Positions 21,273 through 50,136 of a DNA stretch of 64,000 bases are shown here, in pieces (the stretch's first letter is position 1; every line of letters begins with the position of its first letter). Origin of the DNA: a virus; IMG/VR virus record IMGVR_UViG_3300031963_000064, positions 21,396 to 85,395 of that record, one strand, 5' to 3'. The position numbers were made by a program, and so were the translations under genes. The notes under the pieces are model-generated. The model saw only the letters and a program-made list of their open reading frames with translations, did no database searches and was not told the DNA's origin.

Positions 21273-21819
21273 ACCTACTCTTTTTCCACCTACGAATAGA
21301 AGTATGACTAGTCCCATACATTTCACCAAGTTCTCTAATAGGTATATCTAAGATAGAAGGATTTTTATCTACGTCTTCCAAGAAAACTTTATATCCACCA
21401 CCCCTTCTTCTATCATTTAGATATTTTTCAGGAGTGTTGATATAAGTAGATAAATCTCTCAGTCTACCTTTAACCCAACCATTAGGTATTTGGTTTTTAT
21501 GGACTAGTTTTTCTTCTATTCCATTATTCACACGAACCATACCATAGGAGCATAGACCAACTTTTGTTGACTTCACCTTATTAGCGAAGTGTTGATTCTC
21601 ATCAACAGAGAAGAACTCATGGAGTTTTATTTCTGCTAAGTGTGCATCTTCTCTAGTCTCGTGGATGGATAGGATAATTTTTTCAGTTGGACTGAAAGTT
21701 TCATCCGTATAACTCCCCATATAAAAATCCATAGAAGGTTCTACAGAAGAACCCCTAGAACCAATATATCCACGACCATAAGGTTCGTATGAGTAGTAGG
21801 TATAGAAAAACATAGGCAT
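21229..21819 (-). CDS. GIY-YIG-like homing endonuclease with C-terminal helix-turn-helix
   Basis: 196 aa, paralog of the one at 19068. The N-terminus FYTYYSYEPYGRGYIGSRG and EDAHLAEIKLHEFFSVDENQ-HFANKVKST share the same nuclease core, and VNNGIEEKLVHKNQIPNGWV matches the C-terminal motif of the paralog. NUMOD3 units are missing; instead the end has a helix-turn-helix (RELGEMYGTSHTSIRRWKKS). Start at 21819 or, six bases on, 21813 (both ATG). Its first bases overlap riboswitch element A and its last 44 bases overlap element B, so the gene lies inside a split riboswitch. It is the likely mobile agent here. Confidence 0.8.
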   Translation of the reverse strand: MPMFFYTYYSYEPYGRGYIGSRGSSVEPSMDFYMGSYTDETFSPTEKIILSIHETREDAHLAEIKLHEFFSVDENQHFANKVKSTKVGLCSYGMVRVNNGIEEKLVHKNQIPNGWVKGRLRDLSTYINTPEKYLNDRRRGGGYKVFLEDVDKNPSILDIPIRELGEMYGTSHTSIRRWKKSRSFIRYSQIPNANAD

Positions 21820-24911: not shown

Positions 24912-27900
24912 TTATACGTTAAATGATGCAGGGTATGTCGGTTGTGGCAATGCGTTTGCTCTTGCGCTTGATGCTGCAAGAGACCTACGAGCAACACTTA
25001 ATGCTGCACCAGGAACTGCTGCTGTTGTATCTGATGAATAAGTGACCTTATCCATTGTTGAGAATGTACCAGGACCACCACCACCAAAATAACCAGCAGT
25101 TGAGTTTCCTGATGCTGCCAGACGATAACGTGTTCCACTTAATGCGGCACCAGGAACTGCTGCTGTGGTGTCTGATGAATAAGTGACCTTATCCATTGTC
25201 GATGGTGCAGGAGAACCACCACCAAAGTATCCAGAAGATTGATTACCTGTTGCAGCAAGTTGAGAACGAGCAACACTTAATGCTGCACCAGGAACTGCTG
25301 CTGTTGTGTCTGATGAATAAGTGACCTTATCCATTAATGATGATGTAGGAAGACCACCACCAAAGTATCCAGCAGTTGAGTTTCCTGTTGCGGCAAGATA
25401 ACGACGAGCAGCACTTAATGCGGCACCAGGAACTGCTGCTGTGGTGTCAGATGCATAAGTAACCTTATCCATTGTTGAGTAATTGGGTATAGGGAATGCT
25501 GATCCCACTCCACCACCGAAGTATCCTGCAGTTGAAGATCCTGTTGCAGCAAAACTAAAACGACCAACACTTAATGCTGCACCAGGAACTGCTGCTGTTG
25601 TATCAGTGGAATAAGTAACCTTATCCATTGTTGACTGGGGACCAGGAAAACCACCACCAAAGTATCCTGCGGTTAAGGATCCTGTTGCAGCAAGTCCATA
25701 ACGTGCTGCACTTAATGCAGCACCAGTAACTGTTGCTGTTGTATCTGTTGAATAAGTAACTTTATCCATTGTTGATCTTGTACCACCAGGATTAAAACCA
25801 CCACCAAAGTATCCAGTGTTCGGAGTCGGTGCGAATGATGGGGTCTCAAAGGTTGGTTGTGGCAATGCATTTGCTCTGGCACTTGATGCAGCAAGATCAC
25901 TACGAGCAACACTTAATGATGCACTAGGAACTGCTGCTGTTGTATCATTAGAATAAGTGACCTTATCTATTCTTGAAAAAAGAGGAAGACCATAAGACGC
26001 TCCACCACCAAAATATCCTGCATTTGAGTTTCCTGTTGCAGCAACTTTACAACGATTGGTGCTCAAAAATGCACCAGGAACTGCTGCTGTAGTATCAGTC
26101 GCATAAGTGACCTTATCCATTGTTGATCGATCAACACCAGTCAATCCCGGACTGGGTGGAGTGCCACCACCAAAGTAACCTGCGGTTGAGTTTCCTGTTG
26201 CTGCCAGATGATAACGTGCTGCACTTAATGAGGCACCAGGAACTTGTGCTGTAGTATCAGTAGAATAAGTTAACTTATCCATTGTCGATCTTAGTTCTGT
26301 ACTAGTACCATAACCACCACCAAAGTATCCTGCGGTTGAGTTTCCTGTTGCAGATCCGTAAGTGCGACCTACACTCAAAAATCCAGCAGTAGGAAGTGCT
26401 GCTGTGGTATCAGATGAATAAGTTACCTTATCCATTGTTGATATTTGTGAGGGAAATCCATATCCACCACCAAAGTATCCTGCTGTTGAAGATCCTGTTG
26501 CACTTGATATTTCACGAGCACTAGATAGTTTAGCCAATGGAACTGCTGCTGTGGTGTCTGATGAATAAGTGACCTTATCCATTGTTGAATAATTTCCGAC
26601 ACCAGGAACCTGACCACCACCAAAGTATCCTGCGGTTGAGTTTCCTGTTGCTGCCAGACGATAACGAGCAGCACTTAATGCTGCTCCAGGAGCTGCTACT
26701 GTTGTATCAGTTGAATAAGTGACCTTATCCATTGTTGATCTTACACCAGGAGCAGAACCACCACCAAAGTACCCAGTGTTTGGTGCTGTTACATTAACTG
26801 TTCCTGGTGTTGCAGTGAGTGCTGGTGGTTGTGGTAGTGCATTTGCTCTTGCGCTTGATGCAGCAAGACCAAATCGGGGATAACTTAAGTTTGCACCAGG
26901 AACTGCTGCTGTGGTATCTGATGAATAAGTGACCTTATCCATTTCTAAGAATCCAGGACCACCACCAAAGTATCCTGCTGTTGAATTACCTGTTGCACCA
27001 AGATAACCACGTGCTGCACTTAATGCGGCACCAGGAACTGCTGCAGTGGTGTCTGATGAATAAGTGACCTTATCCATTGTTGAGAATGTTTGACCACCAC
27101 CAAAGTATCCTGCTGTTGAGTTTCCTGTTGCGGCAAGACCATAACGAGCAGGAACACTTAATGCGGCACCAGGAACTGCTGCAGTGGTGTCTGATGAATA
27201 AGTGACCTTATCCATTGTTGATCTTGGACCAGGATTACCACCACCAAAGTATCCTGATGTTGAGTTTCCTGTTGCGGCAAGATAGTAACGAGCAACACTT
27301 AAGGATGCTCCAGGAACTGCTGCTGTTGTGTCGGTTGAATAAGTGACCTTATCCATCAATGTAAGTCCTAAACCACCACCAAAGTATCCTGCTGTTGAGT
27401 TTCCTGTTGCGGCAAGATAAGAACGACCAACACTTAATGCGGCACCAGGAACTGCTACTGTAGTATCAGATGCATAAGTAACCTTATCCATTATGTCTGT
27501 AAAATAACCACCACCAAAATATCCTGCTGTTGAGTTACCTGTTGCTGCCAAACCATAACGTGCAGCACTTAATGATGCACCAGGAACTGCTGCTGTAGTA
27601 TCAGACGCATAAGTAACCTTATCCATTGTTGTATGAAATCCACCACCAGATCCACCACCAAAGTATCCAGTGTCTGGTGCTGGTGTTGCATCAGTAAATC
27701 TTGTTGGTGGGTCTGATGGAGCAAAGAAAAATGCACTTGATGCTGCAAGATTAACCCGAGCAACACTTAATGAGGCACCAGCAACTGTTGTTCGTGTGTC
27801 AGTAGAATATGATACCTTATCCATCGTCGATCTTACTGGTATGGGAAATCCTGGAGAACTATTTCCACCACCAAAGTATCCTGCTGTTGAATTTCCTGTT

Positions 27901-28748
27901 GCGGCAAGATTATAACGATCAGCACTTAAAAATGTGCCAGGAATTACTGCTGTGGTATCAGACGCATAAGTAACCTTATCGATTATTGATCTTGCACCAC
28001 CAGAAGATGTTCCACCACCAAAATATCCTGCGGTTGAAGATCCCGTTGCAGCAAGACTAAAACGAGCATCACTTAAAAATGCACCAGGAACTGCTGCTGC
28101 TGTATCAGATGAATAAGTCAACTTATCCATTATCGAATATATTGGTTGAGGAACTACATTTTGAGTACCACCACCAAAGTATCCAGCGGATGAAGATCCT
28201 GTTGCAGCAAGATAATAACGAGCAGCACTTAATGCGGCACCAGGAACTGTTGATCTAGTATCAGTTGAATAAGTGATCTTATCCATTGTTGTCACATATG
28301 CTGGTTCAGATCCACCACCAAAGTATCCTGCGGTTGAGTTTCCTGTTGCTCCAGATCCATAACGAGGAGAACTTAATGAAGCACCAGGAATTGTTGATCT
28401 TGTATCAGTCGAATAAGTGACCTTATCAGTTGTTGAGTGAATTGGTCCGGAGGAATTTCCACCCGCAAAATATCCAGCAGTAGAAGATCCCGTTGCTCCT
28501 AAACTATTACGAGCAACACTTAAGTTTGCACCAGGAACTGCTGCTGTTGTATCAGATGCATAAGTAACCTTATCCATCGTTGATCTTGGAGCAGGAGAAA
28601 GAAAACCACCACCAAAGTATCCTGCAAGTGGCAGTGCTAATGGAGAAGGAGATATCCAAACATCAGATAATGAAATCCATCCATTAGTAAAAGGTATTTT
28701 TTCTTCTCTAATATATGTTAATGTAAATACTCCTCTGGTGTTTGGCAT
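24912..28748 (-). CDS. Giant Kelch-like repeat fibre, paralog 1 (1278 aa)
   Basis: Begins MPNTRGVFTLTYIREEKIPF. Then come 24 repeats of about 50 residues, each reading GYFGGG, a variable loop, STMDKVTYSSDTTAAVPGAA, LSxARxxLAATGNSTA. They fall into four blocks of six, separated by linkers such as ASSARANALPQPP. A double-glycine strand every ~50 residues, in sixes, is the pattern of six-bladed Kelch-type beta-propellers; four in a row are predicted. It ends YPASFNV. The probable role is host recognition at the tail periphery (inference). Only loops after GYFGGG and around ARxxLA vary strongly. Confidence 0.8.
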   Translation of the reverse strand: MPNTRGVFTLTYIREEKIPFTNGWISLSDVWISPSPLALPLAGYFGGGFLSPAPRSTMDKVTYASDTTAAVPGANLSVARNSLGATGSSTAGYFAGGNSSGPIHSTTDKVTYSTDTRSTIPGASLSSPRYGSGATGNSTAGYFGGGSEPAYVTTMDKITYSTDTRSTVPGAALSAARYYLAATGSSSAGYFGGGTQNVVPQPIYSIMDKLTYSSDTAAAVPGAFLSDARFSLAATGSSTAGYFGGGTSSGGARSIIDKVTYASDTTAVIPGTFLSADRYNLAATGNSTAGYFGGGNSSPGFPIPVRSTMDKVSYSTDTRTTVAGASLSVARVNLAASSAFFFAPSDPPTRFTDATPAPDTGYFGGGSGGGFHTTMDKVTYASDTTAAVPGASLSAARYGLAATGNSTAGYFGGGYFTDIMDKVTYASDTTVAVPGAALSVGRSYLAATGNSTAGYFGGGLGLTLMDKVTYSTDTTAAVPGASLSVARYYLAATGNSTSGYFGGGNPGPRSTMDKVTYSSDTTAAVPGAALSVPARYGLAATGNSTAGYFGGGQTFSTMDKVTYSSDTTAAVPGAALSAARGYLGATGNSTAGYFGGGPGFLEMDKVTYSSDTTAAVPGANLSYPRFGLAASSARANALPQPPALTATPGTVNVTAPNTGYFGGGSAPGVRSTMDKVTYSTDTTVAAPGAALSAARYRLAATGNSTAGYFGGGQVPGVGNYSTMDKVTYSSDTTAAVPLAKLSSAREISSATGSSTAGYFGGGYGFPSQISTMDKVTYSSDTTAALPTAGFLSVGRTYGSATGNSTAGYFGGGYGTSTELRSTMDKLTYSTDTTAQVPGASLSAARYHLAATGNSTAGYFGGGTPPSPGLTGVDRSTMDKVTYATDTTAAVPGAFLSTNRCKVAATGNSNAGYFGGGASYGLPLFSRIDKVTYSNDTTAAVPSASLSVARSDLAASSARANALPQPTFETPSFAPTPNTGYFGGGFNPGGTRSTMDKVTYSTDTTATVTGAALSAARYGLAATGSLTAGYFGGGFPGPQSTMDKVTYSTDTTAAVPGAALSVGRFSFAATGSSTAGYFGGGVGSAFPIPNYSTMDKVTYASDTTAAVPGAALSAARRYLAATGNSTAGYFGGGLPTSSLMDKVTYSSDTTAAVPGAALSVARSQLAATGNQSSGYFGGGSPAPSTMDKVTYSSDTTAAVPGAALSGTRYRLAASGNSTAGYFGGGGPGTFSTMDKVTYSSDTTAAVPGAALSVARRSLAASSARANALPQPTYPASFNV

Positions 28749-28750
28749 TA

Positions 28751-29569
28751 TTAATAATACTTATGATTAGAATACTTCCAGTATTCCAAGTTACTATACC
28801 TATTTAGAATCTCATCACTCAAAATACTTTCTGGTTTTGAGGACACTTTTTCCAATTTACCACGAACATGATGCATGTCTTTGAGATACCACTGATCATC
28901 AATCTCACGATGTGTATTCTCAATGTGATCAAAGTTATGAGTATAAGAATCTACTCCCAGAAACTCATAGATTCGATTCATGGTTTCATTGGGTTTTTCA
29001 ATCAAATCATCATACTCAACCATTAACAGATGCTTTTGATCACCACGAATGAATGCCTGTGATTGTGCCCAGAGTGCCTGTTCCACAATACCTTCTTTAC
29101 TCATCAGATAGTGACACCGATTGTCATCCGTGATTGGATATCCTTTTTCAATCAGGTGCTGATCAATAAAAGAAACCTGATCTGAATTGCGTCGGATCAT
29201 GGTAATAAAGGAAGTCAGAATCTCTGTGATGTTTCGAACAGGACAGATAATCTTTGGTTCTGGTGTGATATAAGTTTTGATGCGTTCAATATTATTACTC
29301 CATGCCCTACAGTGATCGATGATGATAGGTTTCTCCACATCAAAGTAGTAGTCTTCAATGATCGTGGAAACAATCCGATGTGCCGATTTTGGTTTTGGAT
29401 ACCCAAGATACTGCTCACTATCAGAAAAGTAATGATCGTTCCAATACATCAGTTCCATGACAGGACTCACTGGTTCTGTATGAAGTTCTGGATTCTGATT
29501 CAAAATACTTTTCAATAGAGTGCTGCCAGATCGTGGAAGACCTGCCATAAAATAATAAGTTTTATTCAT
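28751..29569 (-). CDS. Sulfotransferase, tyrosylprotein-sulfotransferase-like
   Basis: 272 aa. The 5'-phosphosulfate loop is FMAGLPRSGSTLLKSILNQN (residues 7-26), and KIICPVRNITEILTSF (about residue 105) is the 3'-phosphate motif region. This PRSGSTL type is found in PAPS-dependent enzymes that sulfate tyrosine in proteins or sugars. The gene lies between two giant fibres, 2 nt upstream of fibre 1 and 1 nt downstream of an oxygenase-like gene. The repeats contain VTYSSDTT, a Tyr near Asp, so fibre sulfation is possible (inference). Glycan sulfation is the alternative. Confidence 0.85.
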   Translation of the reverse strand: MNKTYYFMAGLPRSGSTLLKSILNQNPELHTEPVSPVMELMYWNDHYFSDSEQYLGYPKPKSAHRIVSTIIEDYYFDVEKPIIIDHCRAWSNNIERIKTYITPEPKIICPVRNITEILTSFITMIRRNSDQVSFIDQHLIEKGYPITDDNRCHYLMSKEGIVEQALWAQSQAFIRGDQKHLLMVEYDDLIEKPNETMNRIYEFLGVDSYTHNFDHIENTHREIDDQWYLKDMHHVRGKLEKVSSKPESILSDEILNRYSNLEYWKYSNHKYY

Positions 29570-29570
29570 A

Positions 29571-30185
29571 TCACCATTCAGTAGGATTAAAGAAAAATAA
29601 TTGAACTAGACGACCATTTTGTAGATTGGTTCCGAAGTTATAATTATGAGAGTGCCACAGATTTGTTTTGAATATGACTATTCTATTATACTTCATGGGT
29701 GAAAGCAAGTATCGAGTCCATTTAGAACGATCTAAACCTTCACCATAAACTGTTGTCCACCATGCTTCTTTTGCCGATGAGTATCCATGATACTTTGCTT
29801 CATCATCTGTGCGTGGACAGGTTTCTGTATGAGTTTTATTATGGACCCAGAATGATGTGCCACCCTCATTAATGACTTGTTCTGGTGGATTGAGATAACA
29901 GACGGCACCAAACTCCCAGACAGGATCGACATGAACATCCTGACGGTAGGTATCCGTCTCTAATGACAAACGAAAATATCCGTTTGGTTGTGCAGGAGTC
30001 AGTTTACGATTCAGAACTGACTCAAACTTTTGATGTAGTGATTCTGGGTAGTAACCGTCTCTTGAGTTCTTTCCAGGATAAGTGTACCCATCCGTTGGTT
30101 CTGGATATGATTCATTCAGAGCAAACTGTCGAATCTCATCAGGGTTTGAATAGAAATCATCAATGACAATAATATTACGTCTCAT
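29571..30185 (-). CDS. DUF6445-like putative 2OG/Fe(II) oxygenase
   Basis: 204 aa. RQDVHVDPVWEFGAVCYLNP carries H85-x-D87, and NRIVIFKTNLWHSHNYNFG carries the distal H178. NGRLVQLFFF gives a candidate 2-oxoglutarate arginine. The YYPESLHQKF and RYLLSPMKYNRIVIF motifs are of the DUF6445 type that I associate with phage hydroxylase-like proteins. The substrate is unknown. It follows fibre 2 (25 nt gap) and precedes the sulfotransferase, as part of the fibre-modification block. Confidence 0.72.
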   Translation of the reverse strand: MRRNIIVIDDFYSNPDEIRQFALNESYPEPTDGYTYPGKNSRDGYYPESLHQKFESVLNRKLTPAQPNGYFRLSLETDTYRQDVHVDPVWEFGAVCYLNPPEQVINEGGTSFWVHNKTHTETCPRTDDEAKYHGYSSAKEAWWTTVYGEGLDRSKWTRYLLSPMKYNRIVIFKTNLWHSHNYNFGTNLQNGRLVQLFFFNPTEW

Positions 30186-30210
30186 AGTTTTTTGAATATT
30201 ATAACACTAA

Positions 30211-33200
30211 TTATACGTTAAATGATATTTGTGAATTACCTGGTAATGCATTACTAGTTGCACTTGATGCTGCAAAATTATTACGAGCAACACTTAAAAA
30301 TGCACCAGGAACTGCTGCTGTTGTATCAATGGAATAAGTGACCTTATCCATCGTTGATCTTGAACCACCACCACCAAAGTATCCTGCCACTAAAGATGAT
30401 GTTGCAACAACACTATCACGAGCAGCACTTAATGAGGCACCAGGAATTGTTGATCTTGTATCAGTGGAGTAAGTTAATTTATCCATTGTTGAATATGCAT
30501 TGGGATTAACAAAACCACCACCAAAGTAACCTGCTGTTGAGTTTCCTGTTGCGGCAACATTACTACCAACACTTAAAAATCCTGCAGTGGGAAGTGCTGA
30601 TATAAAATCATTTGAATAAGTGATCTTATCTACTGTTGTTCTTGCACCTGGAAGTGGAGTAAAGTTATTTCCACCACCAAAGTATCCTGCAGTTGAGTTT
30701 CCTGTTGCACTAGCACCATAACGAGGAGAACTTAAGGAAGGAATTTGCGAAATAATTTCAGTAGAATATGTAAGTTTACTTGCATTTGAATATGGTCCAG
30801 GTGCAGCGGGAAAACCACCGCCACCAAAGTATCCTGCTGCTGGAGAACTTACTGCAGCAATATTTCTACGATCTCTGGTTATACTGGATCCAGATATAAT
30901 TGTTTTTGTATCTGTTATATAATAAATTTTATCCATTAAAGAATAATCCGAACTAGACCCTGGCTGGGGACCTCCAGAAAAATATGCTGTTGTTGAATTT
31001 CCGGTTGCACAATGATTATAACGAGCACCATTTAATGCTGCACCAGGAACTGCTGCTGTTGTATCTGATGCATAAGTAACCTTATCCATTGTTGAATATA
31101 CGAAAGAAGCAATACCACCACCAAAATATCCAAAATTTGAAAATATTGTTCCTGTCTGAAAAGTCGGTTGAGGTAGTGCATTTGCTCTGGCACTCGCTGC
31201 TCCAAGATAAGTGCGAGCAGCACTTAATGCGGCACCAGGAACTGCTGCTGTGGTATCTGATGCATAAGTAACCTTATCCATTGTTGCCACTATGGCACCA
31301 CTAAAACCACAACCAAAGTATCCAGCGGATGAAGATCCTGTTGCAGAAAGAGAATAACGTGTTGCACTTAATGCGGCACCAGGAACTGTTGATCTAGTAT
31401 CAGTTGAATAAGTCACCTTATCCATTGTCGATGATGCAGGAACACCACCACCAAAGTATCCTGCTGTTGAAGAACCTGTTGCGGCAAGAGAATAGCGAGC
31501 AATACTTAATGCTGCACCAGGAACTGCTGATGTAGTATCGGTCGAATAAGTGACCTTTTCCATTGTTGTTAATGGACCAGGAAAACCACCACCAAAGTAT
31601 CCTGATGTTGAGTTACCTGTTGCAGCAAGACCACTACGAGCACTTAATGAGGCACCTGGCAGCGCAGCAGTGGTATCTGATGAATAAGTCAATTTATCCA
31701 TTGTCGATGCCACAGGATTACCACCACCAAAGTATCCTGCGGATGAAGATCCAGTTGCGGCAAGGTATTTACGAGCAGCACTTAAAGCAGCGCCAGGAAC
31801 TACTGCTGTTGTATCTGATGCATAAGTCACTTTATCCATTGTTGAATATAAATTAGGAGATACAATACCACCACCAAAGTATCCTGATATTGAATTTCCA
31901 GTTGCAGCAGAACCTCGACGTGCCACACTTAATGAAGCACCAGGAACTGCTACGGTAGTATCTGATGAATAAGTAACCTTATCCATTGTTGATGATGATG
32001 TTGAAGGACTAGGACCTCCCCCACCAAAGTATCCAGTGTTTGGTACAGATGCATTGAAAATTGTAGGTGTTACTGTCGTTGCTGGTGGTTGAAACAATGC
32101 ATTGGCTCTGGCACTTGATGCGGCAAGATCATAACGAGCAACACTTAATGCGGCACCAGGAACTGCTGCTGTGGTATCTGATGAATAAGTGACCTTATCC
32201 ATTGTTGAGCTTACAGGACCAGAAGTACCACCACCACCAAAGTATCCTGCTGTTGAAGATCCTGTTGCGGCAAGACCATAACGAACAGCACTTAATGCAG
32301 CACCAGGAACTGCTGCAGTAGTATCAGTAGAATAAGTGACCTTATCCATTGTTGAATGATAATTAAATGCAGATCCCGTAAAATAATAACCACCACCAAA
32401 GTATCCTACTGTTGAGTTACCTGTTGCAGCAAGAGCGGCTCGAGCCGCACTTAATGAAGCACCAGGAACTGCTGCAGTAGTATCAGTCGAATAAGTGACC
32501 TTATCCATTCTTGATATATTATTAAATCCACCACCAAAATACCCTGCCGTTGAGTTTCCTGTTGCGGCAAGTTTACTGCGACTAATACTTAATGCTGCTC
32601 CAGGAAGATCAGACATAGTATTTGAATTATAACTTAATTTAGACATTCTAGTGCCAGGACTACCACCACCAAAGTATCCTGCTGTTGAGTTTCCTGTTGC
32701 GGAAAGACCATAGTTGATTGAACTAAAAAATGCTGTGGTTGGTGCTACTGCATTTGTATCTGCCGCATAAGTTATTATCTGTACCGATGAAACAAAATTT
32801 GATATACTATAATCAAATCCACCTCCAAAGTATCCTGCTGTTGTGTTACCTGTTGCACCTTGTTGAGCTCTTGCAACCGCAAAAAAAGCACTAGGAATTG
32901 CTGCAGTTAAATCTGTTGAATAGTTTAATTTATCAACTGTGGCGCTGGAAGCACCACCTGCAAAATATCCTGTTTGTGGAGATAAAGTTCCATCAATAAA
33001 TTTTGATGATGCAGATGATGGTAAAGTACTTACTACTCCCGGCAGTGCATTTGCTCTTGAACTCAGTGCAGCAAGAGTATTGCGAGGAATACTTAAAGCT
33101 GCTGTAGCAACTGCTGAAGTATTTTCTGTTGCAAAAGTCAACTTATCCATCGTCGAACTTACGCCAGGTGAATTTCCTCCACCAAAGTATCCTGCTGTTG

Positions 33201-34050
33201 AGTTTCCTGTTGCAGCAAGACTACTACGTACAGTGCTTAAATTTGCGCTAGTTGGTGCTAAAGCAGTTGTATCTGATGAATATGTAAGTTTATCCATCGT
33301 AGATACGTTAGAAGGAGATAATCCACCTCCAAAGTATCCTGCTGTTGAAGAACCTGTTGCGGCAAGAGAATAGCGAGCAACAGTTAAGTTTGCACCAGGA
33401 ATGAGACTACATGTGTCATAAACATATGTAACCTTATCCATTGTCGATCTTGGAGATCCCTCAAAACCACCACCAAAGTATCCTGCTGTTGTGGATCCTG
33501 TCGCACCAAAACCAAAACGAGCAACATTTAATGCGGCACCAGGAACTGCTGCTGTAGTATCAGTTGAATAAGTCAACTTATCCATTGTTGAATATGTACC
33601 AGGAACACCAGGAAATAGACCACCACCAAAGTATCCTGCCGTTGAGTTTCCTGTTGCAGCGAGAGCACGACGAGCAACACTTAAGAATGCACCAGGAACT
33701 ACCGCAGTAATATCAGTAGAATAATTAAGTTTATCTACTGTCGAATAAGCACCAGGAGCAAAACCACCACCAAAGTATCCTGCTGTTGAGTTTCCTGTTG
33801 CAGCAAGTTGATAACGAGCAGCACTTAATGCAGCACCAGGAACTACCGCAGTAATATCAGTAGAATAATTAAGTTTATCTACTGTCGAATAAGCACCAGG
33901 AGCAAAACCACCACCAAAGTATCCAGTATTTGATGCTACTGATTGTAGTGGTGATGGTGAAACCCATATATCAGTTAGCGGAACATAATCTCCTGCTAAT
34001 GAATTATCAACAACATCAAATAGTCCAAAAACCCCCCGTGTATCAGGCAT
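30211..34050 (-). CDS. Giant Kelch-like repeat fibre, paralog 2 (1279 aa)
   Basis: Begins MPDTRGVFGLFDVVDNSLAG. I count 24 GYFGGG-type repeats in four blocks of six, with linkers LSSRANALPGVVSTLP, ASSARANALFQPPATTV and ASARANALPQPTFQTG. It is the most diverged of the three: several blades depart from STMDKVTY (for example MSKLSYNSNTM, VDKLNYSTD, ASKLTYSTE). It ends NALPGNSQISFNV. The first two blades carry a duplicated segment, FAPGAYSTVDKLNYSTD, that is the same at DNA level (a recent internal duplication). It overlaps by 8 nt the DUF6445-like gene upstream. Confidence 0.8.
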   Translation of the reverse strand: MPDTRGVFGLFDVVDNSLAGDYVPLTDIWVSPSPLQSVASNTGYFGGGFAPGAYSTVDKLNYSTDITAVVPGAALSAARYQLAATGNSTAGYFGGGFAPGAYSTVDKLNYSTDITAVVPGAFLSVARRALAATGNSTAGYFGGGLFPGVPGTYSTMDKLTYSTDTTAAVPGAALNVARFGFGATGSTTAGYFGGGFEGSPRSTMDKVTYVYDTCSLIPGANLTVARYSLAATGSSTAGYFGGGLSPSNVSTMDKLTYSSDTTALAPTSANLSTVRSSLAATGNSTAGYFGGGNSPGVSSTMDKLTFATENTSAVATAALSIPRNTLAALSSRANALPGVVSTLPSSASSKFIDGTLSPQTGYFAGGASSATVDKLNYSTDLTAAIPSAFFAVARAQQGATGNTTAGYFGGGFDYSISNFVSSVQIITYAADTNAVAPTTAFFSSINYGLSATGNSTAGYFGGGSPGTRMSKLSYNSNTMSDLPGAALSISRSKLAATGNSTAGYFGGGFNNISRMDKVTYSTDTTAAVPGASLSAARAALAATGNSTVGYFGGGYYFTGSAFNYHSTMDKVTYSTDTTAAVPGAALSAVRYGLAATGSSTAGYFGGGGTSGPVSSTMDKVTYSSDTTAAVPGAALSVARYDLAASSARANALFQPPATTVTPTIFNASVPNTGYFGGGGPSPSTSSSTMDKVTYSSDTTVAVPGASLSVARRGSAATGNSISGYFGGGIVSPNLYSTMDKVTYASDTTAVVPGAALSAARKYLAATGSSSAGYFGGGNPVASTMDKLTYSSDTTAALPGASLSARSGLAATGNSTSGYFGGGFPGPLTTMEKVTYSTDTTSAVPGAALSIARYSLAATGSSTAGYFGGGVPASSTMDKVTYSTDTRSTVPGAALSATRYSLSATGSSSAGYFGCGFSGAIVATMDKVTYASDTTAAVPGAALSAARTYLGAASARANALPQPTFQTGTIFSNFGYFGGGIASFVYSTMDKVTYASDTTAAVPGAALNGARYNHCATGNSTTAYFSGGPQPGSSSDYSLMDKIYYITDTKTIISGSSITRDRRNIAAVSSPAAGYFGGGGFPAAPGPYSNASKLTYSTEIISQIPSLSSPRYGASATGNSTAGYFGGGNNFTPLPGARTTVDKITYSNDFISALPTAGFLSVGSNVAATGNSTAGYFGGGFVNPNAYSTMDKLTYSTDTRSTIPGASLSAARDSVVATSSLVAGYFGGGGSRSTMDKVTYSIDTTAAVPGAFLSVARNNFAASSATSNALPGNSQISFNV
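33720..33920. repeat. Recent internal duplication in fibre 2
   Basis: The segment coding for FGGGFAPGAYSTVDKLNYST and its flanks occurs twice in a row, in the first and second blades, with identical bases over the core (about 33720-33770 and 33855-33915). The rest of the fibre's blades are more diverged. Confidence 0.7.
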
Positions 34051-34549
34051 TTCTTATTATTATCTTCTGATAAAGCATAGAGTTATTTAGTTTACTCTCA
34101 TAAGAATGCCAACGATTTCCGCGGAACAAAACCATTCGATTATACCTTGCAGGAATGTTACCGTACTCTTTCCACAAACTCAGATCAGAAGAGAAGACTT
34201 GACTCAGTTGACTCTCATCAATCTGATATTGAATCATCTCTTCCTTTGTTGGAAATGTTTCTAATCCCGTTGCAAGGTGAGAGTAAAACTTGACTCCAAA
34301 CTCACCAAATGACTCAAGAGGTAGAGTCAAATAAATCAGAGCGATCCAATCACACTCAAGGTGTGCAACTACACCAGGAAGACTTCCAGTTTGATTGGAT
34401 GCTGATATAATTTCAATCGGATTCCCAATGATCTGTGAGATTTTTCCTACAGTCTCATCAGTAATCACACACTGGTTTTCAAAAAAACCTTTATGATACT
34501 GGTGTGCAATATCATAAAGGTCATCAACGATAATGATCTGTTCGGTCAT
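34043..34549 (-). CDS. DUF6445-like protein, partly degenerate (168 aa)
   Basis: MTEQIIIVDDLYDIAHQYHK, then GVVAHLECDWIALIYLTLPL, then ARYNRMVLFRGNRWHSYESK. It has the same layout as the oxygenase-like protein at 29571, but the proximal HxD reads HLECD (H then D four on), so the metal site may be altered. The distal His is in RWHS. Either a divergent oxygenase or an inactive relative. It overlaps fibre 2 by 8 nt and the 291-aa gene by 4 nt. Confidence 0.65.
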   Translation of the reverse strand: MTEQIIIVDDLYDIAHQYHKGFFENQCVITDETVGKISQIIGNPIEIISASNQTGSLPGVVAHLECDWIALIYLTLPLESFGEFGVKFYSHLATGLETFPTKEEMIQYQIDESQLSQVFSSDLSLWKEYGNIPARYNRMVLFRGNRWHSYESKLNNSMLYQKIIIRNA

Positions 34550-35397
34550 TCTTCGGTATAGGTTCCAGAAATCTTTTTCTGTTCTTCTGCAGGTTTGATT
34601 GCGGCACCATAACCAAGATCAGCACCAGTGATCTTCTCATAACCTCTCATCACTTTACCCTGAAGATCATTGATAAACTCCATTCTTCCCTGATGATCAA
34701 GAAGTTTATTCATTGGCAGATAACCTTCCTTGAAATTGTTTCTTGGATCAACCATTGCAGGAGCAGATGCACGACGCATTGCCTGTAGGTTTGCACCAGA
34801 GATACCAGTCTGTGCTGCCATCAGATCGTCCAGTGCCTGTTCTGCAAGACGAGTATCCCAATACTCTTGGTTCTCTTCCAGGAACTGCTCTCTGGTAGGA
34901 GGAGTACCACCGTTCTGTTCGACCAGTTTTGCAAGCATCTTATCCAGGTGCTGCATCTGGTGTAGACGATCACGAATTTCCATCTCACTACCTTTCAGAT
35001 AATGAGTTAGTTCAAGTTCTTCAAGATCATACCAGCAGAGTTTCTTACCACCACCAGGACCACCAGTTTCCCACATGATGGGTTGAGTCTTATCCTTATC
35101 GTTCCACTTGTACTCAAACTCACGAACTCTCTCTTTCATTTCGATGAGTTTGAACATGTATCCCGATGCCATGATACGACGTTCTTTTAGAATGTGCTCG
35201 AAAGATACAGAGATATTATGAGTATTCAGACCAATGAACTTTTCAATTTGGAAGTTGGTTCTTCCCTGTGCCATTTCCTTATCACTTTCTTCCCAGGCAA
35301 AAACATTCTGAGATGCCTGTGCCAGGTAATCATCATTCAGAACTGCTTCTTGTGCGTTGATTGGTGTATAAGTCAATGCAAAATTTTCTTTAGTCAT
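34546..35397 (-). CDS. Conserved fibre-region protein of unknown function
   Basis: Start chosen at MTKENFALTYTPINAQEA (35397), since I recall the family beginning this way; an ATG 24 nt earlier is in frame. Core: GRTNFQIEKFIGLNTHNISV, KERRIMASGYMFKLIEMKER, WETGGPGGGKKLCWYDLEEL and a coiled region, then QTGISGANLQAMRRASAPAM. This is a recurring cyanophage protein near tail-fibre genes. No enzymatic motif is evident; it may be a fibre assembly factor or structural. Confidence 0.68.
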   Translation of the reverse strand: MTKENFALTYTPINAQEAVLNDDYLAQASQNVFAWEESDKEMAQGRTNFQIEKFIGLNTHNISVSFEHILKERRIMASGYMFKLIEMKERVREFEYKWNDKDKTQPIMWETGGPGGGKKLCWYDLEELELTHYLKGSEMEIRDRLHQMQHLDKMLAKLVEQNGGTPPTREQFLEENQEYWDTRLAEQALDDLMAAQTGISGANLQAMRRASAPAMVDPRNNFKEGYLPMNKLLDHQGRMEFINDLQGKVMRGYEKITGADLGYGAAIKPAEEQKKISGTYTEE

Positions 35398-35445
35398 AAC
35401 TTCTGTCAAATGTATAGACATTTTATCATATTATATAGGGTAATT

Positions 35446-37149
35446 TCAAGAGACGCAACTTTGAGCAAGAACTTGATTAGCAATTTCTTTTCCCCACTTC
35501 TGTTCAAAATAATTTCGATAATTTTTTTCTCGCTCTAAGGTTACTTCTTTTGATTCAGATCCTCTCCAAGTTGATTTACCACAAAAATGAAGTAGATAAG
35601 ATTCGCAGTTAATATCAACATCAAATCCAAGTTGTTGTGCTCTTAATCGATAGTCCGTATCTTCAGCACCGTTCTTAAAGTTTTCATCTAGAAATCCAAC
35701 TTTTAATAGAACTTCACAAGGAATATAAAAACAATAAAATCCAATAATTGTTTTATTAAGATTTAATGTTTTTGAATCGATCAACTTAGAAAATGTATTT
35801 AACTCCTGTTCTTTATTATCATAATCTTCAATATCCATCACTGATTTAATTTTCAAACTCCCATATTCTCCAGGTAATTTTTGGTTACACAATGGAACTA
35901 AAATTTTGTTTCTAGCAGTGAAGTTTTGATTCCAGTCTTCAGTAAAAACTATATCATTACTTAAACCAAAAAAGTCAACTCGATCAACAGCAGCAAGTTT
36001 CATGATAAAGTTCATATTCTCCGCAAAAGTTTTTGGAGTATTATTTGAAATTACAGTGATTTTATTTTGATAATTTGAAAGTTGATATTGATTGTCATTA
36101 TCAATTAAGAAAAATTTATCATGTTCATTTAAATCAGTATTTTTGAAGAAAGAATCAATTGCCAAGTTAGTGTATTGCTCTGTATCATGAGTGCTTACCA
36201 TACAATAATACACTGGTCTTTTCTCTACACTTTTATTTTGTATCGTATCAATCAGATTTTTCCATTGCTCTGCAATCTTTTTCCAGTCATATTTTTCGGT
36301 CACATAATCCGAAATGATCTTAGAAACTTCTTGATAGAACTTCGGTTCCTTTTCATAATAATCCAATGCCAGGCAACAGGCATTAGCAAAGTTAACCAGG
36401 AAATTCTCAGTGACCTTCCAACCTTTGGATGTATTCTCACCTTCAATTGGAACCACAGTTGCATTCTTCTCTCCAGCAACCTCTGCGAGTGCTCCAATAT
36501 TTGTGATGATTGGATAAGCACCACAACGCATTGCCTCACACATTGATTGGCAAAATGTTTCTTCCCAAATATTCGGATGAATAAAAAATGCAGACTCTTG
36601 ATAATGTTTTACTAATTCTTCCTGAGTAACTGCGCGGGAGTATTCTACATTTGGTAATGTTTTAATATGTTCATAAAGTTCAATAAAAGGATCATTTGAA
36701 ATTCCATACAAAGACATCGAAGAAAAAATCTTAAACTTTGTATCTGGATGAAATTGTTGGATCAATGGGATCACTTTTGATAATACTTCAAGACCCTTAT
36801 AAGGAATTGAAGTAAAGATCATTGTTTTTGTTTTTTGAATTGAATGTGAAAAAATATCATAGATTCCAACTGGAATTACTGTAATTTTGTGTTCAGGAAC
36901 ATTTAAGTATTTTACAAACTGATCCTTATTCCATTGAGAAGGAGATACAATATGATCTACAATTGTATGATCAAAATTTAAAAATATTGGTTGATCATAA
37001 GCATGATGTGCCCAAAGAATTTTATATTGATGATTCGATTTTTTAATTTCTTCTGGTAAGTGTGATACAAAAACATTTTCAGGTAACTGATAATGTTCTG
37101 CCAATCGAATATAACATTTTTCAGTTCCACCTGTAATTTGAGTTGCCAT
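35446..37149 (-). CDS. Fused glycosyltransferase, GT-B + GT-A type (567 aa)
   Basis: Residues ~1-290 have the GT4-like features IPVGIYDIF, FTSIPYKGLEVLSKVIPLIQ and HPNIWEETFCQSMCEAMRCG (sugar-nucleotide site E). Residues ~310-567 are a GT2-like half: YYCMVSTHDTEQYTNLAIDS, FFLIDNDNQYQL, FFGLSNDIVFTEDWNQNF and AEDTDYRLRAQQLG (a likely catalytic acid). The two halves are one frame with no gap, so this is a real fusion. It could build a two-sugar unit. It lies between fibres 2 and 3, so fibre or host surface glycosylation is likely. Confidence 0.82.
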   Translation of the reverse strand: MATQITGGTEKCYIRLAEHYQLPENVFVSHLPEEIKKSNHQYKILWAHHAYDQPIFLNFDHTIVDHIVSPSQWNKDQFVKYLNVPEHKITVIPVGIYDIFSHSIQKTKTMIFTSIPYKGLEVLSKVIPLIQQFHPDTKFKIFSSMSLYGISNDPFIELYEHIKTLPNVEYSRAVTQEELVKHYQESAFFIHPNIWEETFCQSMCEAMRCGAYPIITNIGALAEVAGEKNATVVPIEGENTSKGWKVTENFLVNFANACCLALDYYEKEPKFYQEVSKIISDYVTEKYDWKKIAEQWKNLIDTIQNKSVEKRPVYYCMVSTHDTEQYTNLAIDSFFKNTDLNEHDKFFLIDNDNQYQLSNYQNKITVISNNTPKTFAENMNFIMKLAAVDRVDFFGLSNDIVFTEDWNQNFTARNKILVPLCNQKLPGEYGSLKIKSVMDIEDYDNKEQELNTFSKLIDSKTLNLNKTIIGFYCFYIPCEVLLKVGFLDENFKNGAEDTDYRLRAQQLGFDVDINCESYLLHFCGKSTWRGSESKEVTLEREKNYRNYFEQKWGKEIANQVLAQSCVS

Positions 37150-37153
37150 AATA

Positions 37154-37807
37154 CTATCCTTGATAAATGTGATAACCAGTATGATTCAGTTTGATTGTTG
37201 TGTCTAACCAGATACTATAACCGACTGATTGTGCTCTGTGGAAAAAACTCTTATCCTCTGACATAAATCCATTCTGACTCTGATGCTCCGCAAAGTAATG
37301 ATAAGAATTATTCATCTCTGCTGGAGTATGTGGAGTATCAGAATGATAGTCTGATGGAATGTATTTAAGATTTGGATATTGTTTTGCGATGTCTAGAAAC
37401 ACCTGTCGATGAATCAGAACAAATCCCATTCCATTTCCATTGATCTTGACTAGATCTCCGTGTCGTTCTTCTGGTTGAACGATATCTACACAGTATCGTT
37501 CTGGGATGATCTTCATTGGATAGGCACCAGAAACAATTGGAACTTGATGTGCCATTAATTTTAGCACATCTTCTGGATTAAATCCAATGTCACTATCCAG
37601 GAAAAAGAGATACTCGTGTTCTGTATTGTTAATGAAAAAGTTGGCAACCTTAGATCTTGCCTGAGTAATCAGAGAAGAGTTTGTCAGGGTCAGGAGTCCG
37701 TGATGAACATTGTTACGGACTAGTGCTTTCCCTAGATTGAAAAGTCCAAGAGTTGTTTTTTCACTCACAATTCCTCCCATGCAGGGAAGACCAATCATTA
37801 AAGTCAT
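37154..37807 (-). CDS. GT-A glycosyltransferase (217 aa)
   Basis: MIGLPCMGGIVSEKTTLGLF, then a Ser/Arg helix (SSLITQARSKVANFFINNTE), then EYLFFLDSDIGFNPEDVLKL with the D71-x-D73 metal motif, and FMSEDKSFFHRAQSVGYSIW as the acceptor-side acid motif. This matches small phage GT-A enzymes of the Anp1/GT2-like kind. It is 4 nt upstream of the fused glycosyltransferase and 28 nt downstream of fibre 3. A late or constitutive promoter is not evident; it is probably read from the fibre 3 transcript. Confidence 0.82.
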   Translation of the reverse strand: MTLMIGLPCMGGIVSEKTTLGLFNLGKALVRNNVHHGLLTLTNSSLITQARSKVANFFINNTEHEYLFFLDSDIGFNPEDVLKLMAHQVPIVSGAYPMKIIPERYCVDIVQPEERHGDLVKINGNGMGFVLIHRQVFLDIAKQYPNLKYIPSDYHSDTPHTPAEMNNSYHYFAEHQSQNGFMSEDKSFFHRAQSVGYSIWLDTTIKLNHTGYHIYQG

Positions 37808-37835
37808 ATAGTCTTTTTGATTATTATACCACTAA

Positions 37836-40800
37836 TTATACAACAAATGGTCCAGGTGCTGTTTCTGGAAGTGCATTTGCTCTGGCACTTGATGCTGCAA
37901 GACCATTACGAGCAACACTTAATGCTGCACCAGGAACTGCTGCTGTGGTATCTGATGCATAAGTAACCTTATCCATTGTTGATCTTATGCTACCACTAAA
38001 ACCACCACCAAAGTATCCTGCTGTTGAGTTACCTGTTGCGGCAAAAGCAAAACGTGCAACACTTAATGCGGCACCTGGAACTGCGGCGGTGGTGTCTGAT
38101 GCATAAGTGACCTTATCCATTATTGATGATGTAGGTGAACCACCACCAAAGTATCCTGCGGTTGAGTTTCCTGTTGCAGCAAGAAGATAACGAGCAACAG
38201 TTAAGTTTGCACCAGGAACTGCTGCTGTGGTGTCTGATGCATAAGTAACCTTATCCATTGTTGATACTAAACTAGGGGAAGCACCACCACCAAAGTATCC
38301 TGCTGTTGAGTTTCCTGTTGCAGCAACACCATGTCGTGCTGCACTTAATGCGGCACCAGGGACTGCTGCTGTGGTATCTGATGAATAAGTGACCTTATCC
38401 ATTGTTGAATAAAAACTAGGAGGTACAGTGCCACCACCAAAGTATCCTGCTGTTGAGGATCCTGTTGCAGCAAGACCATTACGAGCAACACTTAATCTGG
38501 CACCAGGGACTGCTGCTGTGGTATCTGATGAATAAGTGACCTTATCCATTGTTGATACTGGACCAGGTTCGCCACCACCAAAGTATCCTGCTGTTGAGTT
38601 TCCTGTTGCAGCAACATATCTACGAGCAACACTTAATGCGGCACCAGGAACTGCTGCTGTTGTATCTGATGCATAGGTCACCTTATCCATTGTCGATGCC
38701 ACAGGACTACCACCACCAAAGTAACCAGTGTTCGGAGTAGGTGCGAATGATGGAGTCTCAAAGGTTTGTGGTAATGCATTTGCTCTTGCGCTTGATGCAG
38801 AAAGAGTATTACGAGCAACACTTAATGCAGCACCAGGGACTGCAGCAGTAGTATCAGATGCATAAGTGACCTTATCCATTGTTGATCTTGGACCAGGATT
38901 ACCACCACCAAAGTATCCTGCACTTGAGTTCCCGGTTGCAGCAAGAAAATATCGAACAGCACTTAATACAGCACCAGGAACTGTTGATCTTGTATCAGTA
39001 GAATAAGTGACCTTATTCATTGTTGATAATGGACCAGGAGCACCACCACCAAAATATCCATCAGTTGCATTTCCAGTAGATCCAGTTCCACCAATAGTAG
39101 TGCTAAATGATGCACTAGGAATAGCACTATTAGTATCCGTTGAATATGTCAACTTATTCATTGTTGATAAAGTACCACCAGGAGAAGTACCACCACCAAA
39201 GTATCCTGCATCTGAATTTCCTGTTGCAGAAAATTCACCACGAGCAGGATTAAATGCGGCACCAGGAACTGCTGCTGTGGTATCAGTCGAATAAGTAACC
39301 TTATCCATTATTGAATAATTATTTGGTGAGACACGACCACCACCATAATATCCTGCTATTGAGTTACCTGTTGCTGCTAAATAAGCACGAGCAACACTTA
39401 ATGCGGCACCAGGAACTGCTGCTGTTGTGTCTGATGAATAAGTGACCTTATCCATTGTTGAATATATTGCAGGAAAAGCAAGTCCACCACCAAAGTATCC
39501 AGCGGTTGAGTTTCCTGTTGCAGCAACACCATAACGAGCAGCACTTAATGATGCACCAGGAACTTGTGCTGTTGTATCTGATGAATAAGTGACCTTATCC
39601 ATTGTTGATACTGGACCAGGAGAACCACCACCAAAGTATCCAGTGTTTGGTGATGATGCGAATACAGTTGCTGGTGTGGGTGTTGCTGCTGGTGGTTGAG
39701 GTAGTGCGTTTGCTCTGGCGCTTGATGCGGCAAGACCATAACGAGCAACACTTAATGATGCACCAGGAACTGCTGCTGTGATGTCTGATGCATAAGTGAC
39801 CTTATCCATTGTTGATAATGGACCAGGAGCACCACCACCAAAGTATCCTGCTGTTGAGGATCCTGTTGCAGCAAGAGTATCTCTAGCAACACTTAATGCA
39901 GCACCAGGAACTGCTGCTGTGGTGTCTGATGAATAAGTGACCTTATCCATTGTTGAGTATAATACTGGTCCAGGAGTATTGCCACCACCAAAGTATCCGG
40001 CAGTTGAGGATCCTGTTGCAGCAAGAGCATAACGTGCTGCACTTAATGCGGCACCAGGAACTGCTGCTGTGGTGTCTGATGCATAAGTGACCTTATCCAT
40101 TGTTGATCTGGGACCACTACCACCACCAAAGTATCCTGCTGTTGAGTTTCCTGTTGCAGAAAGTCCATATCGTGCCGCACTTAATGCGGCACCAGGAACT
40201 GCTGCTGTGGTATCAGATGAATAAGTGACCTTATCCATTGTTGATCTTGAACCACCACCACCACCACCACCAAAGTATCCTGATGTTGAGTTACCTGTTG
40301 CAGCAAGACCACTACGAGCAACACTTAATGCTGCTCCAGGAACTGCTGCTGTGGTGTCTGTTGAATAAGTGACCTTATCCATTGTTGATCTTATAGGAAA
40401 CCCACCACCACCAAAGTACCCTGCGGTTGAAGATCCTGTTGCGGCAAGAAGATAACGAGCAATACTTAATGCTGCTCCAGGAACTGCTGCAGTGGTGTCT
40501 GATGAATAAGTAACCTTATCCATTGTTGATCTTGCAGGAAACCCACCACCACCAAAGTATCCAGTGTTTGGTGATGGAGTTGCATCAGAAAATCTTAGTG
40601 AAGGTCCTGACTGGAGAGGTAATTCTGGAAGTGAATTTGCTCTGGCACTTGATGCAGCAAGTCCATAACGAGCAGCACTTAATGCGGCACCAGAAACTGC
40701 AGCGGTAGTTTCTGATGAATAAATTAATTTATCCATTGTTGATCTTGGAGAAGCGCCGCCACCACCAAAGTATCCTGCTGTTGAGTTTCCTGTTGCACTT

Positions 40801-41627
40801 AAATAATTACGAGCAGCACTTAATGATCCAGTAGAAGGAAGAGTAGTTCTAGTATCATTTGAATAAGAAATCTTATCCATTGTCGTTAAATCTACATTAG
40901 TAGGTTGCCTACCACCACCAAAATACCCTGCAGTTGAGTTTCCTGTAGATGCTGCACCACGTCTACCACCACTTAAAGCAGCGCCAGGAACTGCTGCTGT
41001 GGTATCTGATGAATAAGTGACCTTATCCATTGTTGAAATTGAAGAAAATCCACCACCAAAGTATCCTGCAGTTGAGTTTCCTGTTGCAGTAAGTCCTTGA
41101 CGAGGGATACTTAATGCAGCACCAGGAACAGCAGCAGTAGTATCAGTTGAATAAGTAACCTTATCCATTGTTGAATAAGTTGCTGGTGCAGGAGTACTAC
41201 CACCACCAAAGTATCCTGCTGTTGAGTTTCCTGTTGCAGCAAGAGCACTACGAGCAACACTTAAAAGTCCTGAACCAGGAAGTGCTATGGTTGTATCTGT
41301 TGAATAAGTTACCTTATCGAGTGTTGAGTAATTTGGGCCGACGGAACTTCCACCTCCAAAATATCCTGATGTTGAGTTTCCTGTAGCAGCAAGAGTATAA
41401 CGAGCAACACTTAATCTGGCACCAGGGACTGCTGCTGTGGTATCTGATGAATAAGTGACCTTATCCATTGCTGATTGTACTGCTGGACCAGGAACAACAC
41501 CACCACCAAAGTATCCAGTGTTTGGTATTGGTGCCAATAACCAAACATCATTTAGTGGAACCCATTCATCAAGACGTTTTATCTTATATGCAAGTTTTAA
41601 ACTAAAAACACCACGAGTATCTGCCAT
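37836..41627 (-). CDS. Giant Kelch-like repeat fibre, paralog 3 (1263 aa)
   Basis: Begins MADTRGVFSLKLAYKIKRLD. Again 24 GYFGGG repeats in four blocks of six, with linkers ASSARANSLPELPLQSG, ASSARANALPQPPAAT and ASSARANALPQTFETP. The last linker (TFETPSFAPTPNTGYFGGG) is identical to that of fibre 1 before its fourth block, pointing to recent gene conversion. It ends PETAPGPFVV. The N-terminal DTRGVF, WVPLNDVWL head is shared with fibres 1 and 2 and is probably the attachment part. Upstream neighbour is a fibre gene only 4 nt away. Confidence 0.8.
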   Translation of the reverse strand: MADTRGVFSLKLAYKIKRLDEWVPLNDVWLLAPIPNTGYFGGGVVPGPAVQSAMDKVTYSSDTTAAVPGARLSVARYTLAATGNSTSGYFGGGSSVGPNYSTLDKVTYSTDTTIALPGSGLLSVARSALAATGNSTAGYFGGGSTPAPATYSTMDKVTYSTDTTAAVPGAALSIPRQGLTATGNSTAGYFGGGFSSISTMDKVTYSSDTTAAVPGAALSGGRRGAASTGNSTAGYFGGGRQPTNVDLTTMDKISYSNDTRTTLPSTGSLSAARNYLSATGNSTAGYFGGGGASPRSTMDKLIYSSETTAAVSGAALSAARYGLAASSARANSLPELPLQSGPSLRFSDATPSPNTGYFGGGGFPARSTMDKVTYSSDTTAAVPGAALSIARYLLAATGSSTAGYFGGGGFPIRSTMDKVTYSTDTTAAVPGAALSVARSGLAATGNSTSGYFGGGGGGGSRSTMDKVTYSSDTTAAVPGAALSAARYGLSATGNSTAGYFGGGSGPRSTMDKVTYASDTTAAVPGAALSAARYALAATGSSTAGYFGGGNTPGPVLYSTMDKVTYSSDTTAAVPGAALSVARDTLAATGSSTAGYFGGGAPGPLSTMDKVTYASDITAAVPGASLSVARYGLAASSARANALPQPPAATPTPATVFASSPNTGYFGGGSPGPVSTMDKVTYSSDTTAQVPGASLSAARYGVAATGNSTAGYFGGGLAFPAIYSTMDKVTYSSDTTAAVPGAALSVARAYLAATGNSIAGYYGGGRVSPNNYSIMDKVTYSTDTTAAVPGAAFNPARGEFSATGNSDAGYFGGGTSPGGTLSTMNKLTYSTDTNSAIPSASFSTTIGGTGSTGNATDGYFGGGAPGPLSTMNKVTYSTDTRSTVPGAVLSAVRYFLAATGNSSAGYFGGGNPGPRSTMDKVTYASDTTAAVPGAALSVARNTLSASSARANALPQTFETPSFAPTPNTGYFGGGSPVASTMDKVTYASDTTAAVPGAALSVARRYVAATGNSTAGYFGGGEPGPVSTMDKVTYSSDTTAAVPGARLSVARNGLAATGSSTAGYFGGGTVPPSFYSTMDKVTYSSDTTAAVPGAALSAARHGVAATGNSTAGYFGGGASPSLVSTMDKVTYASDTTAAVPGANLTVARYLLAATGNSTAGYFGGGSPTSSIMDKVTYASDTTAAVPGAALSVARFAFAATGNSTAGYFGGGFSGSIRSTMDKVTYASDTTAAVPGAALSVARNGLAASSARANALPETAPGPFVV

Positions 41628-50135: not shown

Positions 50136-50136
50136 T

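Follow-up and report, generated by a model that had tools for sequence, protein, structure and literature searches.

Host recognition by phages is usually pictured in terms of trimeric fibres with beta-helical or beta-sandwich folds. Kelch repeats are also found in phages, P-HM2 carrying a Kelch-repeat gene (PMC3037559) and the Kelch protein CBB_552 being present in the virion (PMC5259590), and such repeats are abundant in marine metagenomes sequenced with long reads (PMC9238414). In Keap1, the last betaA strand completes blade I of the Kelch propeller, and the ligand sits in the DA and BC loops (PMC4668279). The locus considered here lies within a 64,000-nucleotide stretch of DNA from a marine T4-like phage (the window, positions 21,396 to 85,395 of IMG/VR record IMGVR_UViG_3300031963_000064, which is 85.4 kb in length) and contains three genes, F1, F2 and F3, between positions 24912 and 41627. 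Behind a short N-terminal adaptor, each of the encoded proteins would carry a series of four Kelch-type beta-propellers of six blades each, strung on proline/alanine-rich linkers. Kelch proteins in phage virions are already known; what is new is the arrangement of the propellers in tandem chains that change in whole-propeller steps. Indeed, no description of tandem Kelch rings in phage, of repeat totals in multiples of six (6n) or of a linkage to modifying enzymes was found in the open-access literature.

The three chains are all encoded on the minus strand, F1 at 37836..41627 (1263 residues), F2 at 30211..34050 (1279 residues) and F3 at 24912..28748 (1278 residues). Each contains exactly 24 repeats of the GYFGGG type, predicted as 24 blades (4 x 6), when degenerate copies are included (GYYGGG at repeat 15 of F1, GYFGCG at repeat 18 and AYFSGG at repeat 20 of F2, and GYFAGG at repeat 7 of F2 and repeat 2 of F3), a pattern for which chance is not in question. 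The spacing between repeats is 45-54 residues within a block and rises to 64-74 residues after repeats 6, 12 and 18 of all three chains, at which points there also sits a linker of the form ...LAASSARANALP...PNT or a variant of it. These linkers are rich in proline and alanine (..AASSARANALP.. or variant), and it is because the rise in spacing and the linker coincide after repeats 6, 12 and 18 that the chains are divided into 6+6+6+6; the preliminary description of this DNA, made from the sequence alone, had already proposed three paralogs so divided, and the spacing and linker positions confirm it. The four propellers of F1 accordingly lie at 40596..41525 (repeats 1-6, together with the start of the linker), 39669..40571 (repeats 7-12), 38751..39650 (repeats 13-18) and 37851..38735 (repeats 19-24); those of F2 at 33013..33933, 32068..32979, 31156..32043 and 30226..31140; and those of F3 at 27702..28631, 26799..27677, 25839..26783 and 24927..25823, giving a total for the record of 12 propellers and 72 blades. 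In front of them are the N-terminal adaptors, of 37 residues in F1 (41517..41627, with the pattern M..TRGVF.L...W..L..VW) and 42 residues in both F2 (33925..34050) and F3 (28623..28748). A conserved N-terminus of 26-51 residues, a candidate for virion attachment, is likewise present once per Kelch chain, with no convincing copy elsewhere, in nine large contigs of 62-223 kb (L122, L123, L143, L069, L089, L067, L092, L112 and L096), which share ancestry and are not independent of one another. The profile of PHROG 19111, a family with no function assigned in PHROGs, matches several stretches of every chain, at E values from 1e-164 to 1e-191 (1e-191 for F1, 2e-164 for F2 and 3e-180 for F3). Moreover, seven overlapping loci from other contig records (IMG/VR samples 3300031758, 3300042691 and 3300008111) are 100% identical to the window over large parts of the three genes, these identical sequences being the only near matches that the chains have; provided that the samples are independent, the identity argues against gross mis-assembly of the repeats.

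The fold of a single block was predicted with AlphaFold2 for propeller 2 of F1 (301 residues, one of the 12 blocks in the window), from a 104-row alignment built without rows from annotated phage records. The model, with a mean predicted local distance difference test score (pLDDT) of 93.6 and a predicted template modelling score (pTM) of 0.91, is that of a closed six-bladed Kelch propeller. The matches listed by Foldseek against the PDB were all Kelch domains (best E 9e-21), nearly all of them six-bladed KLHL or designed SAKe6 proteins, and in VIA-align the model superposes on SAKe6BE-L2 with a Z score of 39.8 (1.8 A over 271 residues) and on residues 325-609 of Keap1 with a Z score of about 38 (1.9-2.0 A over about 272 residues). 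The preliminary description had also proposed a comparison with Kelch at the level of profiles, and in this regard a profile made from 104 six-repeat blocks of the window and its relatives matches, among PDB sequences, the designed Kelch protein SAKe6FR at 2.5e-16 and human KLHL12 at 2e-9. From the model strands and the alignment, strand A is assigned to LAAT, strand B to AGYFGGG, strand C to MDKVTYS and strand D to TAAVPGA. The double glycine that ends strand B of a Kelch blade is nearly invariant, with glycine at the fifth position of the GYFGGG motif in 67 and at the sixth in all 68 of the window repeats that could be parsed, and the tyrosine of strand C (MDKVTY) is present in 67 of the 68, the remaining one having phenylalanine. 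Each block of F1, F2 and F3 opens at strand B and closes with an extra strand A (LAASS), which in the block model comprises residues 277-284, and the modelled block superposes end to end on Keap1; by analogy, we infer that this C-terminal strand closes blade I in every block. A block of six repeats is, on this modelling, almost certainly a closed six-bladed propeller, in agreement with the fold and the blade number that had been anticipated for it.

The step from one such ring to four in a row is the least direct. It draws on the linkers, on the terminal betaA strand of each block and on a census of loci from viral contigs and phage records. Of the complete chains in it, 105 of which are distinct, 62 have 12 repeats, 23 have 18, five have 24, one has 30, one has six and 13 have other totals. 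Multiples of six are therefore found in 92 of the 105, against the one sixth expected if totals were arbitrary, a figure that is descriptive and carries no independent-sample p value since the chains are related; some of the 13 exceptions are cases of missed or unresolved repeats. The distance between the strand C motif and the GYFGGG that follows it is bimodal, and when blocks are called from this distance, exactly six repeats are found, with no manual repair, in 288 of 329 closed blocks. (Calling blocks by raw repeat spacing was dropped, as it mis-splits chains with long BC loops.) From the linkers and the census taken together, four rings per chain are very likely, and six blades per block is the rule, with rare exceptions.

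The repeats are far from uniform around the ring. Over the 68 parsed repeats the GYFGGG motif and the strand cores are nearly fixed, and the BC loops that follow GYFGGG are distinct in 65 cases and range from 5 to 14 residues in length, a range beyond what substitution alone, of the type produced by a diversity-generating retroelement, would give. The preliminary description had pointed to this loop as hypervariable and as lying on one face; a second variable site, which it missed, is the DA loop, two residues after ..AR with about 3 bits of entropy at each position. Both loops lie on the same face, that which binds ligand or substrate in Kelch domains. Between paralogous repeats, the ratio of non-synonymous to synonymous change (pN/pS), taken from the 40 repeats that fit the pattern, is 0.02 for strand B, 0.30 for C-D and 0.47 for A, and rises to 1.64 for BC and 2.00 for DA. 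The preliminary description had also proposed to test whether loop residues vary most between strains; in 13 pairs of close relatives, replacements per site reach 0.092 in DA and 0.074 in BC against 0.008-0.029 in the strands, and 10 of the 17 insertions or deletions fall in BC. The sequences thus compared indicate that purifying selection maintains the strands, together with the AB and CD turns, and it can be said with high confidence that the loops of the binding face diversify.

Change also occurs on a larger scale. In the window, F3 is flanked by genes for a DUF6445 protein (29571..30185, between F2 and F3), a sulfotransferase (PF13469; 28751..29569) and, directly downstream, a 2-oxoglutarate (2OG)-Fe(II) oxygenase (PF13640; 24221..24886), all on the minus strand, and the same order of DUF6445, sulfotransferase, chain and 2OG oxygenase is present in a related locus, L011. 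The three flanking proteins of the two loci are 97-98% identical (91-95% in DNA), and the chain between them is about 63% identical to F3, has 30 blades rather than 24 and shows no block-by-block correspondence. In another locus, L010, the chain at the position of F2 has 18 blades. Because of these two comparisons, arrays can be said, on the sequences available, to be replaced or shuffled in whole propellers while the flanking genes stay in place.

Taken together, these features would describe chains that are tail-associated adhesins or fibres, in which the propellers present many different binding faces in series to host surface molecules, and in which the repertoire shifts both by substitution and length change in the loops and, at fixed loci, by whole propellers being gained, lost or shuffled. 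In other words, the sequences point to what is probably a modular and quickly re-tooled gripping device with host cells as its putative target. As a whole, this proposal of chained Kelch rings as host-binding adhesins or fibres with a changing repertoire is the one that we favour and regard as reasonably probable, the chain of rings in the native protein, the virion location, the receptor binding and the enzyme targets being those parts of it that we infer.

Several observations weigh against it. Neither F1, F2, F3 nor block 2 of F1 has a Pfam Kelch match at E<=1, and no window chain alone passes a Pfam or NCBIfam Kelch model. Relatives do pass such Pfam models, PF24681 matching 62 of the 104 that were aligned (best 4.5e-19). 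The tryptophan of Kelch strand D is absent, there being no tryptophan in the 24 repeats of F1, F2 or F3, and its position is taken by valine, alanine, threonine or serine; the window repeats are by profile and predicted fold members of the Kelch superfamily that stand outside the canonical KLHL-type motif. The pN/pS ratios between paralogous repeats are a rough measure, in that BC loops were compared at equal length only and their homology is not assured, the DA value being the safer of the two because its length is fixed at two. A few relatives have blocks of four or five repeats (L015 with 6+6+4+6, L106 with 6+5+6 and L073 with 4+6), as have a few short contigs, such that the expectation of six per block in relatives stands for the great majority of blocks and fails for these; the exceptions may be assembly errors or real. 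In this regard, L107 and L108 share 99.9% identity over 6.7 kb but have unlike first parts and unlike repeat counts in block two, which suggests a repeat mis-assembly (chimera) in at least that case. The contigs L106, L107 and L108 are nearly identical apart from their upstream parts and the blade number of one block, and are probably repeat chimeras, or else true array variants. No data from mass spectrometry or microscopy were found for the chains.

The tandem rings were also not seen in one model. AlphaFold run on residues 1-965 of F1, comprising three blocks, with a 29-row alignment gave an unconfident structure (pLDDT 46.7, pTM 0.48) with no PDB match at E<=0.001, and the model was rejected as evidence either way. 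The earlier claim of four six-bladed propellers per chain is upheld, then, as regards the closure of one block, the linkers and the 6n census, and is neither confirmed nor refuted by the longer model. That model shows sheets and nothing resembling a ring, as would be expected if the 24 repeats formed one continuous beta-solenoid or open superhelix, but its pLDDT is only 47 and it lacks a significant PDB match. The single block, moreover, closes at a pLDDT of 93.6, a linker follows every sixth repeat, totals come in multiples of six, and the blocks open with strand B and end with strand A in the manner of a closing Kelch ring, all of which make a continuous structure highly improbable.

The genomic setting bears on where the chains act. 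The record has a T4-like gene content (gp32, gp59, a T4 baseplate protein, gp53 and a tail lysozyme), psbA was not found in the fragment, and a search of GTDB genomes with block 2 of F1 returned no cellular relatives. F1, F2 and F3 share their strand with tail, baseplate-type and virion structural genes and come directly after these, and there is good reason to expect that they are virion proteins. Upstream of them, at 48846-52601, are three tandem paralogous tail proteins (phrog_5939; 429, 399 and 422 residues), and at 52601-59695 an open reading frame (ORF) of 2364 residues, called with a TTG start, which combines a C-terminal Peptidase_S74 intramolecular chaperone with baseplate-wedge-like stretches. 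Placement of the three chains in the virion is itself a conclusion drawn from this setting, and poxvirus Kelch proteins act in the cell, such that the phage proteins might be scaffolds or decoys inside the infected cell and absent from the particle. Their position in the run of tail genes, their dedicated N-terminal adaptor and the size and number of the paralogs, both typical of fibres, make such a role scarcely probable. If the chains are in the virion, they could still do something other than bind a receptor, by decorating the particle as head or tail whiskers, by binding environmental glycans or particles, or by shielding it. Kelch domains do occur in jumbo-phage virion proteins of unknown role (CBB_552 was identified in the virion by mass spectrometry; PMC5259590), several BFVD matches are named virion structural protein, and the linked DUF6445 proteins match phrog_1644, annotated as 'minor coat protein'. 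The genes, however, lie behind others of tail-fibre and baseplate type in the same orientation, and loop diversification together with array replacement at syntenic loci fits a recognition arms race better, so that decoration is an unlikely account of the chains, and binding of a host receptor by F1, F2 and F3 is on balance the likely one.

The interval from 24912 to 41627 holds six further genes that went unmentioned in the preliminary description, all on the minus strand. Besides the sulfotransferase and the DUF6445 protein next to F3, there are a second DUF6445 protein, with a partial match, between F1 and F2 (34043..34549), a glycosyltransferase of GT group 1 (35446..37149), a glycosyltransferase-like protein (37154..37807; phrog_1574, with a weak match to phrog_34859) and a conserved protein of 291 residues (34546..35421), for which there is no Pfam, PHROG or NCBIfam match and which is up to 96% identical in relatives, with a counterpart in 75 of the 131 other Kelch loci that were fetched. 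Of the same 131 loci, 122 contain a relative of one or more of the enzyme-type genes that lie between and beside the chains, the 2OG oxygenase included. All nine of the large contigs have a 2OG oxygenase and a sulfotransferase within the Kelch cluster or next to it, at a site far from the baseplate gene; each contig has one sulfotransferase and one strong 2OG match, and two carry a second, weaker 2OG match. The best relatives of the window sulfotransferase in the phage collection are from the Kelch-bearing AG-345-L05, AG-345-O18 and S-SKS1, with S-SRM01 next. From this conserved linkage, the sulfotransferase, 2OG oxygenase and glycosyltransferases would modify the same structure as the propellers form or the matching host surface, and probably act on one or other of these; that the chains themselves are the substrate is a tentative suggestion. 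The same linkage could be read to mean that the propellers are enzymes or substrates in a phage-encoded surface-modification pathway with loops that track the substrates, and some six-bladed Kelch proteins, such as NanM, are enzymes. The binding-face loops, with no invariant polar residue, 65 of 68 BC sequences distinct and DA near 3 bits, are unlike an active site, and a place for the propellers in such a pathway is very unlikely.

If the proposal of host-binding Kelch-ring chains is true, then such rings, whose loops evolve while the scaffold stays common, would be a different solution to recognition, one that would give meaning to the functionless PHROG 19111. The enzyme linkage in turn raises the question of whether a phage adhesin is sulfated or hydroxylated by phage enzymes. 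It is possible, if doubtful at present, that there is a whole and widespread marine phage family with host-recognition fibres of two, three, four or five chained Kelch rings, altered one whole ring at a time, diversified in the loops of one face and modified by co-inherited enzymes through sulfation, hydroxylation and glycosylation, which would amount to a combinatorial recognition array with post-translational tuning, with RCC1 propellers filling the same niche in a related phage. Virion location and binding are directly testable, since the family is present in a phage isolate, S-SKS1, whose host is Synechococcus WH7803. Its record (HQ633071.1; L033, L034) starts inside a Kelch gene and has frames that break within repeats near the other end, and the hypothetical proteins annotated at the record ends are, from the sequence, probably truncated. 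'Nine-repeat' ORFs in this record were considered as nine-bladed rings and rejected; they contain one linker, their frames stop within repeats and 12 repeats are found in the contigs closest to them, such that they are read as broken frames in that record.

Among known systems, the Kelch domains of Keap1 and other KLHL proteins resemble a block of the window chains in their six four-stranded blades, the double glycine ending strand B, the tyrosine in strand C, the BC and DA loops, which vary and share a face, and, by analogy, the closure of blade I by a C-terminal strand A. They differ in that the window has four rings per chain, repeats that lack the tryptophan and are much more alike within a chain, no BTB or BACK domain, and a phage context. 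The designed symmetric six-bladed SAKe proteins are the best structural and profile match, with near-identical repeats round the ring, and the logic of the proposed phage chains would be close to that of designers' repeat-based binding scaffolds; the SAKe proteins are, however, artificial single rings, whereas the window chains are natural and tandem with varied loops. The Kelch proteins of jumbo phages (Pectobacterium phage CBB, PhiPA3, Phabio and Noxifer) and of BcepSaruman are also phage propellers, some of them known or named as virion proteins. Unlike the window chains, those inspected showed no tandem chain in whole-propeller steps, and BcepSaruman has a single propeller, one block of about six repeats, for which linkage to the enzyme set was not seen. 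In Synechococcus phage S-SRM01 a tail fibre gene is followed by several propeller-type genes that have a sulfotransferase and a glycosyltransferase in their neighbourhood, as in the present arrangement, but the three proteins (MW015081.1, L153; 5552-6586, 7250-8467 and 12798-13979) belong to the RCC1 family and have one domain per chain, with 6-7 repeats matched by Pfam RCC1. Closest are S-SKS1 and the marine viruses AG-345-L05 and AG-345-O18, which have homologous chains, hypothetical or unannotated, with the same type of N-terminal adaptor and a neighbouring sulfotransferase, and which differ from the window in chain length, the nearest relatives of the S-SKS1 proteins having two propellers per chain and the AG-345 chains three.

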